From: Gemmatimonadota bacterium
GTDB taxonomy: Bacteria > Gemmatimonadota > Gemmatimonadetes > Gemmatimonadales > Gemmatimonadaceae
DNA: 55,367 nucleotides
Reading direction: 5' to 3'
NCBI GenBank assembly: GCA_016874035.1
Contig: VGVM01000010.1
Coordinates: forward strand, 1-55,367
The notes beneath the pieces were generated by a model. That model searched no databases. It worked only from the letters and a program-made list of their open reading frames with translations, and was not told where the DNA came from. Below are positions 109 through 13,141 of this stretch, one piece after another. A program made the translations under genes and the position numbers. Positions within the stretch are counted from its first letter, which is position 1. Every line of letters begins with the position of its first letter.

Positions 109-3100
109 ATGACGGCGCCACGGTCCGACGCAAACGTGATGCTCGTCCGCCTGCGTGAGGCCTGCGAGTCCCTCGCCCGCATGCGCGACCGGGGATCGCT
201 CGAACGGGAGCTCGCGCGCCACGCGGCCCTGCTGACCGACGCCAAGGGCGGGATCGTCGCGCGGGCCGACGGCAGCGGCGCGGACGCAACCATGCTGTCG
301 CACTGGGTCGCCGGCGCGGAACCTCATGCGGTGGCGGCCGGCGCCGACACGCTGGAGGCGCCCGCCGACGCCATGGAGGCGCTGAACGAGGTGGTGCGCA
401 GCGGCCGCTCGCAGGACCCGGCGCAGAGCGGCGACATGGCGGTGCCGATCCGCGCCGGACACAAGATGGTGGGCGTGCTGGCGGTGTACGGCGGCACGCG
501 TACGTCGCAACACCACCCGCTGCTCACGACACTCGCGGCGGCCGGCGCGGCGGCGCTTGCCGCCGCCGAAGTGGTCGCGGACGCCGAACGCGACAAGCGG
601 CAGAGCGAGGCGCTGGCCGAACTCGCGCAGGCGCTTGGCTCGTCGCGCCGGCTCGGCGACGTGTTCCACCTCGGCATGCGCCACTCGAGCGCGATCCTCG
701 GTGCGGCCGGTGCCGCGATCGTCCTGTTGCGCGACGAGTACTTCCACATCGTCGCGGCGTCGGGGTGCGCGACGGCCGCGCAAGGCCTGTACGTCCCGGC
801 CGACGCCAACGCCGTGGCGCGCGACCTGCGCAAAGGGCACGCGGTGATCTCGAACACGATCGCGCCGACCTACGGCGCCAGCGCACGGGCCCTGGAACTC
901 TCGAACGCGCAGAAGTTCGCGGCCGCGCCGATGCGGGGACCGGGCGGAGTGATCGGCGCCCTCGTGGTCGTGAATCGCGACAGCGACTTTGGCGACACCG
1001 ACATCCGCGTGCTCGATCGGCTCGCGTCACAACTGGCCGTCGCGGTCGAGCAGGTGCGGCTGCTCGAGGAAGCTGCGTCGGCGACCCGTGAGTTGGGTGC
1101 GGCCTTTGACGCGATCGCCGGGGCACTGGTGGTCATTGACAGTGACGCCGTGATCGTCCGGCACAGCGCGCGCCTGGCCGTGCTGACCGGCGCGCCGGAT
1201 GGGGTCGCGTTCGTCGGCCGCTCACTCTTCGATGTGCTCCTCGGCGCGCTGGAGCTGCCGCGAGAGGACGATCCGATCGGCACCGCGATCGTGCGTCGCG
1301 CCGTGGGTCGCGGGCTCATGCGCCACGCGAGCCGCGGCCGCGTGTATGACATCGTCGCCTCGCCGCACCCGGCCGGTGGCGCAGTCGTGACCGTTGACGA
1401 CGTCACGTCCGACCTGGCGCTCGCGGAGCGGTACCGCCTGGTGATCGAGTCCACCGCGGACGCCGTGCTGATCGCCGAACCGGACGGCACCATCTCGTTT
1501 GCCAATCCGGCGGGCGCAACGCTGTTCGGGCGCGAGGTGGCGAACGTCGGGCTCACGCTGCCCGAGCTGGTCTCGCCGGACTGGCGCGCCCAGGTGCACG
1601 CGCTCACGGAGCGTGGGCTCGCCGGCGAGCGGGTTCACTTCGAGGCGCGGGCGGCGCGGCCCGACGGCGATGTGCGCGTGCTCGACGCGTCGCTGTCGCC
1701 GCTGCGGGGCGGGGGCGCCTCCGGCGGATTCGTCGCGGCGATCCGGGACGCGACGGACGAAGCGCGCGCGCGGGAGGCGATGCACGAGGCGGATCGCCGC
1801 TACCGCCTGCTCGTGGATACCGCCACGGACGCGATCTTCACGGTGGATCACGCGGGCATGATCGGTTCGGTGAACCCGGCGTGCGAACGCGAGACGGGTT
1901 TCGCGCGCGCGCAGTTGATCGGGCGCCGGCTCACGTCCCTGGTCGAGCCGGTCGAGGCAGCCGCGTTCGAGCGCGAACTCGAGCGCGCGCTCGCCGGGGC
2001 CGGTCGGCAGTTCGCGTGGCGCCTCGTTCGCGCCGACGGGCCGGTGCGCTCCATGTCGGTCGCGTTCAGCCCCATTGTCGTTGAAGGCCGCGTGACCGGC
2101 CTGCTCGGGATTGCGCGGCCGATGCCGGAGCACCAGGCGACGGTCGCCGAAGGGGACCGGCTGCAGCGTCGCTTCGCCGGCCTGGTCGAGGCGGCCGAAG
2201 ACATGATCTGCACGCTGGACGAGGAAGGGCACATCACGTCGGCCAATCGCGCGATGGCGCGACTCGTGGGACTCCCACGGCATCGCGTGGTGGGTCGTCA
2301 GTTCGCCGACCTGGTTCCTGAGGACCAGCGCGCCGCGCTCTGGGAAGCCTTTACCCGCACCCTCGAAGGCGGACGCCGGCGGCTGGAGCTTCGGATGACC
2401 ACGCCGCGGGGTCGTGCGTTGGTCCTGCACGTGAGCACGGCGCCACTCATCGAGCACGATCACGTCAATGGCGCACTCGCGATCCTGCGCGACGTCACTG
2501 AGGAGCGAGCCGTGTATGAGCAGGCGGCGCGCCGCGAGAAACTCGCGGCCCTCGGGGAACTGATCGGTGGCGTCGCCCACGAGGTGAACTCACCGCTGAC
2601 GGGCATCCTCGCGCACGGGCAGCTGCTTCAGTCGGAGTTCGCCGAGGGAACCGATACTCGAATGGCGGCGGACACGATCGTGAACGAGTCGCGCCGCGCG
2701 GCGCGGATCGTGGCCAAGCTGCTCACGTTCGCGCGCCAGAACCCCACGGACCGCATTCCTACCGAGATCAACCAGGTCGTCAACGACACGCTCGAGCTCC
2801 GGCGCTACGCGCTTCGCATGCAGCGGATCACGCTCGACGTGGACCTGACGCCCAAGCTGCCCCTGGTCTCCGCGGACCCGTTCCAGCTCCAGCAGGTGTT
2901 CATCAACCTGCTGTCGAACGCCGAGCAGGCCGTGCTCTCGCGCGACGAGGCCGGGCGGCGCATTGCCGTCAGCACCCAGGCCACGGATTCGGCCATTGTC
3001 GTGCGAATCACCGACACGGGTACCGGGATTGCGCCCGAGCATCTTCCTCACATCTTCAATCCGTTCTACACCACCAAGCCGCGGGGCATCGGCACCGGAC

Positions 3101-6276: not shown

Positions 6277-7200
6277 GTGCAACAGGGGACTCCGTACAGC
6301 GCGCGCGCGATGCATCTCACCGAGGCCGGCCTGGTCCTGATGGCGATCATCTGGGGCCTCAACTTCGCCGTGCTCAAGTACGGAACGAACGTCCTCGAAC
6401 CGATCGCCTACAACGCGACCCGCATGGTCGTCGGGACCATCGTGCTGCTCGCGATCGCCCTGGCCGTCGCCCGGCGGCCGTCGTGGGAGGAAATCCGCCG
6501 CCTGATGCTGCTGGGTGTGCTGGGCCACGGGGTGTACCAAGCGCTGTTCATTACCGGGCTCGCGCGGACGCGAGCCGGCACGGCGGCGCTCGTGGTCGCC
6601 GCGAGCCCCGCGGTCATCGCCATCGTCGGTCGCGCGTATGGGGTGGAGCGGCTCGAGCGCCGGGCCGTGCTCGGGATCATCCTCTCGTTCGTCGGCATTG
6701 CGATCGTCGTGCTCGGGTCGTCACGCGACGATGCCGCGGCCGGACGTGCCGCCATCGTGGGCGACGCGCTCATCCTCTGCTCCGTGATCGCCTGGGCGTT
6801 CTATACGACGTTGCTCAAGCCGCTCACGCACACGATCGAGGGCGTGCATATCGCCGGCTGGACCCTGCTTGGCGGGACCATCCCGATGGTGGCCGTCGCC
6901 ACGCCTGCGCTGTTCCGGACGGAGTGGTCCGCCGTGACGCCGTTGACCTGGGGGGCGGTGGCCTACTCGGGGATCGGGGCGATCGGGCTGGCGTACCTCT
7001 TCTGGTATCGCGGGGTACGAGTCATCGGTTCGACGCGCACGTCCATGTTCGCCCAGATGCAGCCGATGATCGCCCTGCTTGCGGCTTGGCCGCTGCTCGG
7101 GGAGCGCCCAACGTCATGGCAACTGGGTGGATCCGCCGCCGTCCTCGGCGGGCTGTTCCTCACACGCACCGGGGCGCCGGAACCGGCGCATGGCGAATAA
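6277..7200 (+). CDS. DMT superfamily transporter (EamA family)
   Basis: A 307-residue inner-membrane protein with about ten hydrophobic segments arranged as two EamA repeats: repeat 1 from LVLMAIIWGLNFAVLKYG to about residue 150, repeat 2 from about 165 (ALILCSVIAWAFYTTLLKP) to 300 (GSAAVLGGLFLTR). EamA proteins are usually exporters of amino acids or other metabolites; nothing here shows the substrate. The GTG at 6277 is chosen because of the promoter-like element 5 nt upstream; ATG 6310 would start right before the first membrane helix and is a good alternative. The HAD gene follows 3 nt after the stop, so the two are co-transcribed. Confidence 0.9.
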   Translation: MQQGTPYSARAMHLTEAGLVLMAIIWGLNFAVLKYGTNVLEPIAYNATRMVVGTIVLLAIALAVARRPSWEEIRRLMLLGVLGHGVYQALFITGLARTRAGTAALVVAASPAVIAIVGRAYGVERLERRAVLGIILSFVGIAIVVLGSSRDDAAAGRAAIVGDALILCSVIAWAFYTTLLKPLTHTIEGVHIAGWTLLGGTIPMVAVATPALFRTEWSAVTPLTWGAVAYSGIGAIGLAYLFWYRGVRVIGSTRTSMFAQMQPMIALLAAWPLLGERPTSWQLGGSAAVLGGLFLTRTGAPEPAHGE

Positions 7201-7203
7201 GAC

Positions 7204-7896
7204 ATGAAGGTCGCCCTCTTCGACATTGACGGGACCATCTTGCTGGCGCGTGGTGCGGGACAGCGGTCCATGCACCGCGTCCTGATCGAGGCGATCGGCA
7301 CGCCGGGCCCGGGCGGACAGCACTACGCCGGCAAGACCGACCCGCAGATCGTGCGCGAGGCGATGCGGTTCGCGGGCTGCGATGACCGTGAGATTGACGC
7401 ACGCATGCCGGCAGTGCTCGGCCGATACCTGGAGGAGCTCGAGCAGGAACTGCGCGCCCCCGTGCAGCCGATCGAGGTGCTGCCGGGCGTTCCGGAACTG
7501 ATAGACGCCTGCGAGGCGCATGAACGCGTGACGCTCGGGTTGCTCACCGGAAACCTCCTGTCGGGGGCCGCCTGGAAGTTGCGGGCCGGTGGCATTGATC
7601 CCGCACGCTTCGCGTTCGGCGCGTACGGCAGCGATCACGAGGAACGGCCCGTGCTGGCCGGGATCGCGCGCGAACGGGCCAGCGCGCACGTCGGACGCGA
7701 TGTCGCCGCACGCGATTGCGTCGTTATCGGCGACACGCCCGCCGATATCGCGTGCGCACAGGCGATCGGCGCGCGTACGCTGGCCGTGGCCACCGGCAGC
7801 TTCACCGTTGACGTGCTGACGGAGGCCGGCGCGGACCACGTCATGGAAGATCTTGCCGACACGGCGAGCGCACTGGCGGCGATCCTCCGTGACTGA
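7204..7896 (+). CDS. HAD superfamily phosphatase (phosphoglycolate phosphatase-like)
   Basis: A 230-residue haloacid dehalogenase-like hydrolase. Motif I is FDIDGTIL (nucleophile D8, acid D10), motif II is the Thr of LGLLTGN, and motif III/IV is VVIGDTPADIACA. The cap between motifs I and II is alpha-helical (type C1), as in phosphoglycolate phosphatase and beta-phosphoglucomutase relatives. The enzyme would hydrolyse a small phosphate ester in the cytosol; the substrate cannot be assigned. It starts 3 nt after the DMT stop, and its last 8 nt overlap the GTG start proposed for the next ORF, so the genes form a unit. Confidence 0.9.
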   Translation: MKVALFDIDGTILLARGAGQRSMHRVLIEAIGTPGPGGQHYAGKTDPQIVREAMRFAGCDDREIDARMPAVLGRYLEELEQELRAPVQPIEVLPGVPELIDACEAHERVTLGLLTGNLLSGAAWKLRAGGIDPARFAFGAYGSDHEERPVLAGIARERASAHVGRDVAARDCVVIGDTPADIACAQAIGARTLAVATGSFTVDVLTEAGADHVMEDLADTASALAAILRD

Positions 7897-10543
7897 CGCG
7901 GACGGGGCGCTGGAAGTTCCGGAGTTCACGCGGTCGTTGCGTGGATTCGCCTCGATGACGGCGCTCGGCACCGCGACGCACGACCTCGTGTTCGCGCCGC
8001 TCCTCGTCGCACGGCGTGCGGCGTCCCGCGTTTCCAGCAGCGACGGTGCCCTGGCCGCGTTCGACGCGCAGCGCCTTGTGCGGGGCGTCACGGATGCGAT
8101 CCCGCGGATTGTCGCTGCGCGCTACAAGCCGGACACCGCCGACCACCGCGGGGCATGCGCCACGCTCGAGCAGGCCGCCGCGCCACTCTTCGATGCGTTC
8201 ACGGCGATCGGCGAGGCCACGAGCGCATTTCGCGGCTCGAGCCGCGCGGAACGCCCACAGCGATGGCACGCCTGGTGCGAGGCGGTGCAGCGGGCCTGGA
8301 ACGAAGCCGACGCATGGTACTTCATCGCGGTGGATGTGGCAGGGCCAGGCGGGAAATCGCCGGGTGTGGAGGTGCCGTCGCGTGCGGGCGGTCGGACGGT
8401 CGGCGCGCTCGCGTTCGTGTTCGTCTCGGTGCTCGCGGCCGCGGCGCCGCCCGCGGAGGCGCAGCGAACCATGGTGCGCGTGGTCGGGGCGAGCGCCGAC
8501 TCGCTGACGGCCGCGGGCTTCGATGTGGTTGGACAGGAACCCGGATCGCTGATCGTCGTCGCGGACCCCTACGACCGCGCACGGCTTGCGGCCCGGGGCG
8601 CGCGAGTCGAGGAGATCCGCTCGCCGCTCGGCGCGCGGCTCGCCAATGCCGCCACCGCGACGACCGTGTATCGGAGCTTCGACGATCCCGTTCGCGGCGT
8701 GCGCTTCTGGATCGATTCGCTTGCGGCGAACAACCCGCGCGTGAGCGTGGACACGATCGGGCGCAGCTTTGAAGGGCGCCCGATGCTGGCCGTGAAGATC
8801 GGCCCGCGCGGCGAAAGTCCGCAGCGGCCGAACGCGCTGTTCCTCGCGACGTACCATGCGCGCGAGTGGGCGGCGACCGAGACGGCGTTGCGACTGATCC
8901 GCTGGCTCGCCGCGCCCCCAGGCACGGATGCGCGGCGCGACTCGCTGGTGGCGGCGCGCGACATCTGGGTCATTCCCGTCGCAAACCCGGACGGCTACCA
9001 GTACACGTTCTCCACTGAACGGCTGTGGCGGAAGACCCGCTCGCCGCAGTCGCTCGGCGCCACGGGCGCCGACATGAATCGCAACCACTCGGTGAGCTGG
9101 GGCCTCGACAACCAGGGATCCTCGCCCGACCCGAGGTCGGACATCTTCCGCGGCGCTACGGCGGCGTCCGAGATCGAGACGCGAAACATCGAGGCCTTTC
9201 ATGTGAAGTACCCGCCCGTGGTGGCGATCAGCTATCACACGTACTCAGGGCTGCTGCTGTACCCGCCCGGCCAGGTGTACGGCGCGCTTCCGGCCGACCT
9301 GCCCGTGTACCAGGCCCTCGCCGGCACGCATTTGCGCAGCGCCGTGAGCGATCGCGTGCCGGGTACCAACCGCACGGTGTACGCGCCGTCGCCCGGCTGG
9401 CAGCTCTACACGACCAACGGGGAATACACGGACTACGCATCGGCACGGTTCGGGACGCTCGCGTTCACGACGGAACTCACGAGCGGGTACACCGGAAGCA
9501 CGCTGTACGGCTTCGAGTTTCCCGATGACGAGGCCATGCTGGAGCGTGTGTTCCAGGACAACCTGCCGTTTGCGCTCGACCTGCTCGATGCGGCGCGCGA
9601 TCCGGTGAGCTTCCGGGGGCCGGTCACGCAGCGCGACGTGCCCCGCCTGACGCTGGAATCTGCTTCGCCCGAGATTCGCGCGATCCTCCCGGCTCGTGAC
9701 GCCGTCGGCGCCGGGGTGCGGATCGGGAACAACGTATCGTTTCGCGTGGACAGCGCGGCCGGCGGCAAGTACACGCGCCGCATCACGTCGGCCCCGATCC
9801 CGCGGCCGGCCGCGTTCACGATCTCAGGATCCGGGCTCAATGCGAACTTCCGGGTGCTCAACATCGGCGGCGCCGAGGCGATAGACGACACGTGGCAACT
9901 GCAGGGTTTCAGCCGCGACTCGGTCTTTCGCGTCGCGGGCCGCAACTCGTGGTTCGGAACCTCAGGCACCCTGCGCTCGCCAACGATCGCCGTTCCAACA
10001 ACTATTGATACCGTCACGGTCGCCTACTGGACGATGCACTCCGGAAGCGGCTTCACCCCGACTCCGTCCGGTCGGCTCGAACTCAGCACCGACGCCGGCT
10101 CGAGCTGGAGCACGATCCTGGTGCAGCGCGGTTCCGCCCCGGTGTTCTATCCCGATCGCGTGACCGTTGGCGGCGTGGCAGGGAAGTCCATCGCATTCCG
10201 CTTCGTGTCTTCCGGGATGCCGTGGCGGCTCGATGAGATCGCGATTGTCGGGCACGCCGCCGTGACCTCAGGGCCCGTCGCGGCGACGGCGGAATTGGCG
10301 CCAAGCGAGAATCCCGTACGGAGCGCGACCGTCAGCTTCGCGTGGCCGTTCGGCGCCGCGGACGGCGAGATTGTCGCCCTCGACTTTGCCGGTCGAATCG
10401 TCTGGCGCGGTCCTGTGCGCGGGGGTGTGGTGCCAATCTGGAACGTCGAGTCGGGACGTCACCCGAATGGTGTGTACCTCGTGGTCGCGCGAGCCGGAGG
10501 CAAGTCGGTCCAGCTGAAGCTCTTCGTGACCCGGCGCGGCTGA
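7889..10543 (+). CDS. M14 zinc carboxypeptidase with T9SS-type sorting domain, preceded in frame by an extra N-terminal domain
   Basis: The open frame runs 884 codons from GTG 7889. Residues 1-165 are a helical, cytosolic-looking region I do not recognise. Residues 170-192 form a typical signal peptide (VGALAFVFVSVLAAAAPPAEAQ region ending A-E-A). Then comes an M14 peptidase with zinc ligands H323 and E326 (YHAREW) and H450 (SYHTYSG), an Asn-Arg pair in DMNRNHS and catalytic E529 (TTELTSG). A beta-rich region follows, and the last 75 residues (NPVRSATVSF...GRIVW...PNGVYLVV) resemble type IX secretion/FlgD-like sorting domains. The secreted peptidase could be translated separately from GTG 8366 or 8372, downstream of the purine-rich GGCGGGA. 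Either the N-terminal domain is a separate gene that lost its stop, or one fused product exists. Secretion via T9SS is inferred. Confidence 0.85.
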   Translation: MTDADGALEVPEFTRSLRGFASMTALGTATHDLVFAPLLVARRAASRVSSSDGALAAFDAQRLVRGVTDAIPRIVAARYKPDTADHRGACATLEQAAAPLFDAFTAIGEATSAFRGSSRAERPQRWHAWCEAVQRAWNEADAWYFIAVDVAGPGGKSPGVEVPSRAGGRTVGALAFVFVSVLAAAAPPAEAQRTMVRVVGASADSLTAAGFDVVGQEPGSLIVVADPYDRARLAARGARVEEIRSPLGARLANAATATTVYRSFDDPVRGVRFWIDSLAANNPRVSVDTIGRSFEGRPMLAVKIGPRGESPQRPNALFLATYHAREWAATETALRLIRWLAAPPGTDARRDSLVAARDIWVIPVANPDGYQYTFSTERLWRKTRSPQSLGATGADMNRNHSVSWGLDNQGSSPDPRSDIFRGATAASEIETRNIEAFHVKYPPVVAISYHTYSGLLLYPPGQVYGALPADLPVYQALAGTHLRSAVSDRVPGTNRTVYAPSPGWQLYTTNGEYTDYASARFGTLAFTTELTSGYTGSTLYGFEFPDDEAMLERVFQDNLPFALDLLDAARDPVSFRGPVTQRDVPRLTLESASPEIRAILPARDAVGAGVRIGNNVSFRVDSAAGGKYTRRITSAPIPRPAAFTISGSGLNANFRVLNIGGAEAIDDTWQLQGFSRDSVFRVAGRNSWFGTSGTLRSPTIAVPTTIDTVTVAYWTMHSGSGFTPTPSGRLELSTDAGSSWSTILVQRGSAPVFYPDRVTVGGVAGKSIAFRFVSSGMPWRLDEIAIVGHAAVTSGPVAATAELAPSENPVRSATVSFAWPFGAADGEIVALDFAGRIVWRGPVRGGVVPIWNVESGRHPNGVYLVVARAGGKSVQLKLFVTRRG

Positions 10544-10932
10544 TGGTGATCGGGGTCGGCATTGACCTGATCGAGATCGCCCGGCTGGAGCGGATGCTCG
10601 ACGGCAAGGGAACGCGCGCGCTCGAGCGGCTGTTCACCGATGCCGAGCTGGCGTACGCGCGCGGCCGCGCAAGACCTGCCATGCACCTCGCCGCACGCGT
10701 CGCGGCGAAGGAAGCCGCCTTCAAGGCACTGTCCGGCACCGACGACGCCCGGCTGATCGGATGGCGCGAGGTCGAAGTCGTTTCGCACGATGGGCGAAGC
10801 CCGTCGCTCAGCTTCCACGGACGAGCCGCCGTCCGGGCCACTGTGCTGCGCGTCGGCCGGACCCACCTCTCGCTGACGCACACCGACCGGACAGCCGGGG
10901 CTGTGGTCGTGCTCGAATCAGGTGAAGACTAG
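10543..10932 (+). CDS. acpS: holo-[acyl-carrier-protein] synthase
   Basis: A 129-residue cytosolic enzyme that transfers the 4'-phosphopantetheine group from CoA to the serine of acyl carrier protein. Signature motifs are GVGIDLIEIARLERML (Mg-binding Asp in GIDLIEI) and RVAAKEAAFKAL (catalytic Glu/Lys), plus SLTHTDRTAGAVVV at the end. The length is normal for AcpS. The ATG overlaps the upstream peptidase stop by one base (TGATG), so it is translationally coupled to the M14 gene. Confidence 0.96.
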   Translation: MVIGVGIDLIEIARLERMLDGKGTRALERLFTDAELAYARGRARPAMHLAARVAAKEAAFKALSGTDDARLIGWREVEVVSHDGRSPSLSFHGRAAVRATVLRVGRTHLSLTHTDRTAGAVVVLESGED

Positions 10933-10953
10933 CGGCCGGAAACCATTCCCGAG

Positions 10954-10961
10954 TATTTTAG
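10954..10961 (+). promoter_or_regulatory. putative -10/-7 element TATTTTAG
   Basis: An AT-rich TATTTTAG lies 8 nt before ATG 10970 in otherwise GC-rich DNA. An AGGA overlaps the gap, so either a very short leader or a leaderless transcript is possible. Confidence 0.4.
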
Positions 10962-10969
10962 TCAGGAAT

Positions 10970-13141
10970 ATGCCCCGATACGCGCAACGCGCTGTATTCA
11001 TTGCGGTTACGGCACTTTTGGGATCGCTTCCGGCGCAGGCTCAGGAGACGGTCGGCAAGCGCTTGTCTGCGATTGTCGGCGTTGCCGTTGAGGAATACGG
11101 AAAGGGAGTGGATGCGAACGGGCGGGTGTTCGCCCAGCTCGAGGTTGACGAGGCCACGGGGTTCCTGCGCGAAGCGCTGGAAGTCTCGAACCGCCTGACG
11201 TCGCCCACAGCTCCGGCGGTTCGCGAGGCGATCTCGGGCATGCTCGCTGCGACATCGGCGCGGGCACGCCCGGATTCGGTGCGTGTGCTCTACGCGGGTT
11301 TTGTGACCGCGCTCGGGGCCGACGGGGCGCTGGACCTCCCGAGTGGCCCGATCAACCTGGCCCGCGGCAAGGCGATCTACGACCGGTCGTGCGCCGCCTG
11401 TCACGGGCTTCGCGGTGAAGGAACGGCACTCCCGCGCGGAGCGCCGGCCAATGCACTGGCGCCGCCGGCGATCGGGACGCATGAGATCATGCGTGACGCA
11501 ACGCCGGCGCTCACGTACCGGATCGTCAGCGTCGGGATCCAGGGCACGGCGATGCGCGGCTGGTCGGATTCGCTTTCGACCGACGACCGGTGGAACGTCG
11601 TGGCGTACGTAAACTCGCTTCGTTCAACCGATGCGGAGCGCGCACGCGGCCGCCACGTGGTGGCGCGGGTCTGCGCGGATTGCGATTCCACGACATCCGC
11701 GCGGCAGTTTGGCTGGCTGGCGCAGCGGAGCGACGCGGACCTGGTCGCGATGCTGCGGTCCGGCGATCCGGCGAGCGGCGTGCCGGCTGCCGCGCCGGTG
11801 AGTGCGTCGGAGGCGGATGCGATCGTCGCGGCGCTCCGGGCGGATGCCATCGTGGCGCCGACGCCCGCCAGTGGCGCGAGCGACGAACCCCGCGCGGTGG
11901 CCCGTCGCGTGCTCGGCATCGTGGACGCGGCCGTCGTCGCGACTCGGAGCGGACGGCGCGTCGAAGCGGCGGATCACGCCTTCGATGCGTACATCGCGTT
12001 CGAGCCGCTGGAGTCGAACGCGCGGCTGCGCGATCCCGCGCTCGTCGCCCGCCTCGAACGCCATTTCGCCGACCTGCACAGCGCGGTCAAGGCCGGCGAC
12101 GCCGCGGCGGCGGACCGCATTCGCACGGAGATCGAACTCGGCATGCCCGCCGTGCTCGAGCTGACGGCGCCGATGGCGGCGGGCTGGGGCACGTTCGTCG
12201 AGTCCTTGCTGATCATCCTGCGCGAAGGGTTCGAGGCGATCCTGGTGGTCGGCGCGATCGTCGCCTTCCTGATCAAGACCGGCAACCGCAGGCGGCTGCG
12301 CGAAATCTGGATCGGCGTCGGCGCGGGGCTTGTGGCCAGCGCCGTGCTCGCCGTGATCCTGCGCACGATGCTCGCGAACGCGGCGGCGAGTCGCGAAGTC
12401 ATCGAAGGCGCGACCATGCTCGTCGCGGTCGTGGTGCTGTTCTCCGTGAGCTACTGGCTGCTCTCAAAGGTTGAGGGCGAGAAGTGGCAGCAGTTCATTC
12501 GCGCCAAGGTTTCCGATGCGCTTGATCGCGGGGGCTCGACGGCGCTCGGGTTCGTCGCGTTCCTTGCGGTGTTCCGGGAGGGCGCGGAAACGGCGCTCTT
12601 CTTCCAGGCCCTGGCCGCGCGGAGCAGCGGCGCGCTTCCCGCAATCGTCGGCGGTATCGCGGCCGGTGGCGCGCTGCTGGCCGTGATCTTCACGCTGTTC
12701 TACCAGTTCGGGATTCGCATCCCGCTCCGGCCGTTCTTCGGCGTGACGAGCGGCTTGCTCTACTGGATGGCGCTCGTGTTCGCCGGCAAGGGCGTCAAGG
12801 AACTGCAGGAAGGCGGCGCGATGTCGCGCACGCTCGTGCCCGCCGGGCCCCACGTGGATATCCTCGGCGTGTACCCCACGGTCGAGACGCTGCTGGCGCA
12901 GGGCCTGTTGGTGGCGCTCCTGCTGTTCGCGATCTGGCGCACGTTCCTCACGCCGCCGCTGCGACAGGCCGCCGTCGAGGCCGCTGCCGAGCCGGATCGC
13001 TCCGAGGCGGCCGGTGAGGCGGTACCGCCAGAGGTCGCTGCGCGGCTTGCCGAGCTGCAGGTGACCGCGAAGCGCCTGCAGGACCGCGTGACGTCGCTCG
13101 AACGTGAGGTCGAGCATGACGGCACGAAACGACACACGTAG
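10970..13141 (+). CDS. cytochrome c-FTR1 fusion iron permease
   Basis: A 723-residue exported/inner-membrane protein. A signal peptide ends near PAQAQ (about residue 24). A cytochrome c domain binds one haem at C141-A-A-C144-H145, and a second CADCD at 235-239 lacks the haem-ligating His and looks vestigial. From about 400 an FTR1-type permease begins with two REXXE iron-binding motifs, R418-E419-G-F-E422 and R536-E537-G-A-E540, about seven membrane helices, and ends in a soluble helical tail with heptad pattern (LAELQVTAKRLQDRVTSLE). FTR1 permeases move ferric iron coupled to oxidation, and a linked periplasmic cytochrome is a known architecture for electron transfer. The start is at the ATG with AGGA just upstream. 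Confidence 0.93.
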   Translation: MPRYAQRAVFIAVTALLGSLPAQAQETVGKRLSAIVGVAVEEYGKGVDANGRVFAQLEVDEATGFLREALEVSNRLTSPTAPAVREAISGMLAATSARARPDSVRVLYAGFVTALGADGALDLPSGPINLARGKAIYDRSCAACHGLRGEGTALPRGAPANALAPPAIGTHEIMRDATPALTYRIVSVGIQGTAMRGWSDSLSTDDRWNVVAYVNSLRSTDAERARGRHVVARVCADCDSTTSARQFGWLAQRSDADLVAMLRSGDPASGVPAAAPVSASEADAIVAALRADAIVAPTPASGASDEPRAVARRVLGIVDAAVVATRSGRRVEAADHAFDAYIAFEPLESNARLRDPALVARLERHFADLHSAVKAGDAAAADRIRTEIELGMPAVLELTAPMAAGWGTFVESLLIILREGFEAILVVGAIVAFLIKTGNRRRLREIWIGVGAGLVASAVLAVILRTMLANAAASREVIEGATMLVAVVVLFSVSYWLLSKVEGEKWQQFIRAKVSDALDRGGSTALGFVAFLAVFREGAETALFFQALAARSSGALPAIVGGIAAGGALLAVIFTLFYQFGIRIPLRPFFGVTSGLLYWMALVFAGKGVKELQEGGAMSRTLVPAGPHVDILGVYPTVETLLAQGLLVALLLFAIWRTFLTPPLRQAAVEAAAEPDRSEAAGEAVPPEVAARLAELQVTAKRLQDRVTSLEREVEHDGTKRHT

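Follow-up and report, generated by a model that had tools for sequence, protein, structure and literature searches.

An in-frame fusion in Gemmatimonadaceae joins a helical domain to an M14 carboxypeptidase through an internal, probably cleaved signal peptide

Results

The window that we analyzed is a 55,367-nucleotide stretch of contig VGVM01000010.1 from a Gemmatimonadota bacterium, whose genome is a draft in 191 contigs. It contains a frame free of stop codons at 7853–10543, which likely starts at GTG 7889, a codon lying within the 3′ end of the upstream HAD-hydrolase gene (HAD stop 7894–7896), and which ends with a stop codon at 10541–10543 (Table 1). Its translation consists of a 159-residue helical domain that we named HEL, followed by a linker, a signal peptide, and an M14 carboxypeptidase. 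The junction between the helical residues and the M14 domain reads ...VEVPSRAGGRTVGALAFVFVSVLAAAAPPAEA↓QRTMVRV.... In relatives, HEL starts at similar distances upstream of a conserved PEFTR motif.

Table 1. Features in and around the HEL-M14 frame (window coordinates)
Feature	Position	Strand	Basis
HAD-family phosphatase, upstream neighbor	7204..7896	+	Pfam HAD; neighbor kept in relatives
HEL domain, predicted soluble four-helix bundle	7889..8332	+	HEL profile match 7913–8332; start GTG 7889
Linker, from last invariant HEL residue D141 to signal peptide	8312..8389	+	First 7 codons shared with end of HEL profile match
Internal signal peptide (n, h, and c regions), AEA↓Q site after residue 191	8390..8461	+	Read from sequence
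N-terminal part of mature peptidase, putative propeptide	8462..8707	+	Located downstream of cleavage site, ahead of M14
M14 zinc carboxypeptidase domain	8708..9526	+	Pfam PF00246, E 3.7e-57
Peptidase C-terminal region and stop codon	9527..10543	+	Conserved in fused relatives
Holo-ACP synthase (acpS), downstream neighbor	10543..10932	+	Pfam ACPS; start overlaps peptidase stop; neighbor kept in relatives

Across relatives, the gene order is EamA, HAD, (CYTH in many), HEL-M14, acpS, and FTR1. The CYTH-domain gene separates HAD from HEL (e.g., at about 2400–3000 in locus L038) and is absent from this position in the window. Further downstream in the window, a c-type cytochrome domain comes first and an FTR1 iron permease second in a single frame at 10922–13141 (Pfam Cytochrome_CBB3 and FTR1). 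In one relative (G016, locus L047), the FTR1 gene is matched in two frames at 7012–7056, which suggests a frameshift.

The Peptidase_M14 domain covers residues 274–546, and the closest solved structure to this part is carboxypeptidase T (1obr, E 2e-35). The zinc ligands H323, E326, and H450 and the catalytic E529 are invariant in 17 sequences, and the protein shares with the M14A/carboxypeptidase T-like group the catalytic-domain profile, the HxxE...H motif, and the catalytic Glu. Because of these catalytic residues and the likeness to carboxypeptidase T, the M14 part is likely, as judged from sequence, to be a periplasmic or secreted carboxypeptidase. The residues between the cleavage site and the M14 domain are probably propeptide-like. 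For the C-terminal region of the peptidase, Pfam and NCBIfam searches gave no match; its tail, which we take to resemble a type IX sorting or FlgD-like domain, has no supporting profile.

The predicted signal peptidase site, with A/L/V/S at −3, A/G at −1, and Q at +1 (A/L/V/S-x-A/G↓Q), is kept in 26/26 sequences, and Q192 is nearly invariant in aligned relatives. Stand-alone M14 peptidases of other families display the same kind of site. Its retention in all 26 sequences argues that cleavage is still in use, and the mid-protein secretion signal is most likely still functional and cleaved.

We wondered how widespread this architecture might be. Of 179 Gemmatimonadaceae species, 136 have a match to the HEL profile and 33 have the M14 part. 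Both halves could be judged in 31 species, and in 30 of these they form an in-frame HEL-M14 fusion. These 30 comprise 29 species with a single match that runs from HEL through M14 in the same open frame, plus G150, in which a contig end cuts the gene and the first piece spans HEL and the start of M14 in one frame; G017 and G181, which begin at a contig edge, were left out of the count. The layout described in the original prediction, a helical domain running without a stop into a mid-frame signal peptide ahead of M14, is thus conserved in the family. In G010, the sole exception, HEL ends in the TGA of a GTGA whose GTG starts the separate peptidase (MTLRRRGAIAAVALIAVAIGVPQTATAQ). Since G010 is placed within the fused clade in both trees, its split is either derived or an assembly error.

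The stretch between HEL and the signal peptide speaks for one gene rather than two. In 26 aligned sequences (window included), it contains no in-frame stop. In the other frames, the same stretch is interrupted in 19/26 sequences in frame +1 (25 stops) and in 6/26 in frame +2 (7 stops). Composition-shuffled linkers have a mean stop-free probability of 0.58 each, and the product over the 26 is 2.6e-7, which is not a true p-value because the sequences are related. Measured between the last invariant HEL residue and the cleavage site, the 26 fused sequences show nine distinct lengths, from 38 to 50 residues, all of them frame-keeping. Purifying selection acts on the linker: pN/pS is 0.37 when relatives are pooled, and linker-only substitutions give a pS of 0.48 and a pN of 0.18 (eight pairs).

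Start codons point in the same direction. Eight relatives (L070, L071, L072, L074, L076, L086, L088, and L092) have no ATG, GTG, or TTG in the stretch from HEL to the hydrophobic core, and in three (L071, L072, and L076) start codons are absent as far as the cleavage site; L082 and L090 were left out of this count because of a mis-set boundary. Internal initiation therefore cannot explain those relatives, in which both parts share one frame with no internal start, while GTGs remain in the window. These findings indicate that HEL and M14 in the window are one gene, not a gene followed by a hidden second one.

What might HEL be? Its AlphaFold2 model has a pLDDT of 92.6, and structure searches retrieved generic four-helix bundles only. 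Its resemblance to FAT/vinculin-tail four-helix bundles (best Foldseek E 0.11; VIA Z 10.6, rmsd 3.7, 124 aligned) is below a telling level for helical bundles. Pfam searches with HEL and with the upstream gene X described below, and an NCBIfam search with the whole HEL-M14 protein, returned nothing above cut-off, and searching PDB sequences with the HEL profile gave only matches with an E above 1. HEL is present in 33 of 61 related genomes, all 33 belonging to Gemmatimonadaceae, which are soil and freshwater bacteria. In HEL-only genomes, a close M14 relative is absent, and in most of those examined the stop of HEL either overlaps the acpS start or directly adjoins it. We looked for a transmembrane helix in the HEL of HEL-only relatives and found none, so membrane attachment of HEL is not always required. 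Our best guess is that HEL is a membrane-proximal binding module. Several relatives have about 85 extra residues N-terminal to HEL (e.g., L021, 1237–1500), which look beta-rich by eye and have no Pfam match.

A possible origin of the fusion is offered by other Gemmatimonadales families, where the gene before M14, which we named X, encodes a helical protein of about 245 residues with a C-terminal transmembrane helix. In 12/12 X-bearing loci of these families, X stops just inside the M14 start in a different frame, and the M14 downstream is started independently and carries a signal peptide of its own. X is probably a distant HEL homolog. The profiles align with an hhalign E of 2.8e-6 (probability 88%) over 70 columns, mainly in the second half, and X-HEL profile matches range from E 7e-6 to 9e-3. 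The models of both are four-helix bundles retrieving the same structures, a kind of similarity that is weak evidence where helical bundles are concerned. In a third family (two genomes), M14 directly follows HAD. Since the Gemmatimonadaceae peptidases form one clade in the M14 tree, the most economical history is a single fusion with later losses of the peptidase. Several such losses are required by the flanking-gene tree, and transfer between species may also have occurred.

Discussion

Taken together, these comparisons make it probable that HEL-M14 is one old in-frame fusion gene, in which the anchor of X was replaced by the signal peptide of the peptidase, with HEL cytoplasmic and the peptidase released. 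Either loss of the stop or a deletion that changed the frame at the X/M14 overlap would have removed X's own anchor and joined X to the peptidase signal peptide. This internal signal peptide would target the product to the membrane while HEL stays cytoplasmic. To judge from the motif, signal peptidase I would cut after A191 and let the peptidase into the periplasm. HEL would then retain a hydrophobic stub as its membrane anchor, which is the topology predicted for X, and might act at the inner membrane as a small helical scaffold or as a binding module. We think it quite unlikely, but conceivable, that the protein acts as a processing switch, where one HEL is tethered per secreted peptidase and later freed by an intramembrane protease, reporting export to the cytoplasm.

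The peptidase could also stay attached. As an uncleaved type II membrane protein, HEL-M14 would have a permanent anchor holding the peptidase on the outer side of the inner membrane and HEL inside. The unbroken frame in every fused relative except one speaks for this, as do the positive charges ahead of the hydrophobic core, which fit an N-in topology. The short hydrophobic core and the signal peptidase I type site in 26/26 sequences, of the same kind as in the stand-alone peptidases of other families, make this an unlikely alternative. The original prediction had offered a single product whose internal signal acts as a membrane anchor; the single product is supported by its conservation across the family, whereas the anchor is only part of the picture, because the kept site suggests that the peptidase is cut free.

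A very improbable reading is that two nested products are made, the long fusion and a short peptidase from an internal start such as GTG 8366 or 8372. These window GTGs do have a weak Shine-Dalgarno-like GGCGGGA upstream, and the peptidase has a separate start in G010 and in other families, but both codons, which fall in the linker, are nonconserved and lie within a window-specific insertion, and L071, L072, and L076 lack any start ahead of the cleavage site. The same insertion, together with the eight relatives devoid of a start before the hydrophobic core, speaks against the proposal of two genes with the peptidase initiated at one of these GTGs. As a family-wide account, a hidden second gene is ruled out by the fused relatives, some of which lack an internal start codon; a fused gene in relatives was what the original prediction had named as evidence against it, and it was found in 30 species. 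There is next to no chance that an assembly or sequencing error took out a stop or shifted the frame. The genome is indeed a draft, but the same fusion occurs in assemblies of 30 species, which rules out error as a family-wide account.

HEL-M14 illustrates a route from an out-of-frame gene overlap to a fusion with a mid-protein signal peptide, in which the anchor is swapped and the predicted topology kept. Signal peptide prediction usually reads N-termini and would tend to overlook exported proteins of this kind. The protein could also be used to test Sec targeting where a folded cytosolic domain, here about 160 residues long, lies ahead of the signal peptide.

None of the papers searched reports a HEL-M14 fusion. 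The arrangement, which the original prediction put forward as novel, is not wholly so, since internal cleavable signal peptides are already known in bacterial and viral precursors, of which HEL-M14 is a new instance. It resembles carboxypeptidase T and M14A peptidases in its M14 domain, its conserved zinc ligands and catalytic Glu, and its predicted export by a signal peptide. In carboxypeptidase T, however, the signal peptide sits at the N-terminus; in HEL-M14 it is preceded by a predicted cytoplasmic domain in the same frame. Bradyrhizobium FbcH is a cytochrome b-c1 precursor whose internal signal peptide is cut to give two proteins that are separately encoded in relatives. HEL-M14 is similarly a single frame in a bacterium that contains an internal signal peptide, the cleavage of which is predicted from its motif, and has parts that are separate in relatives (X and M14 in 12 loci; L084). 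The two parts of FbcH are subunits of the same membrane complex, whereas HEL-M14 joins a small helical bundle to a peptidase.

Two other systems share parts of this design. Like the anti-sigma factor RsiV (PMC6066255), HEL-M14 is predicted to have an N-terminal cytoplasmic domain, one transmembrane segment, an extracytoplasmic domain, and a signal peptidase cut. Cleavage of RsiV depends on lysozyme and liberates a sigma factor (PMC6066255), whereas the extracytoplasmic part of HEL-M14 is an enzyme with no known linked sigma factor; an adjacent cognate sigma gene would mark an RsiV-like system, and the neighbors identified around HEL-M14 are EamA, HAD, acpS, FTR1, and, in relatives, CYTH. At the core-E1 junction of HCV (PMC5402940), signal peptidase cleavage leaves a cytosolic protein held in the membrane by the signal peptide of the protein that follows it, as we propose for HEL. 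The HCV case is a viral polyprotein in the ER (PMC5402940), and the likeness is one of mechanism only.
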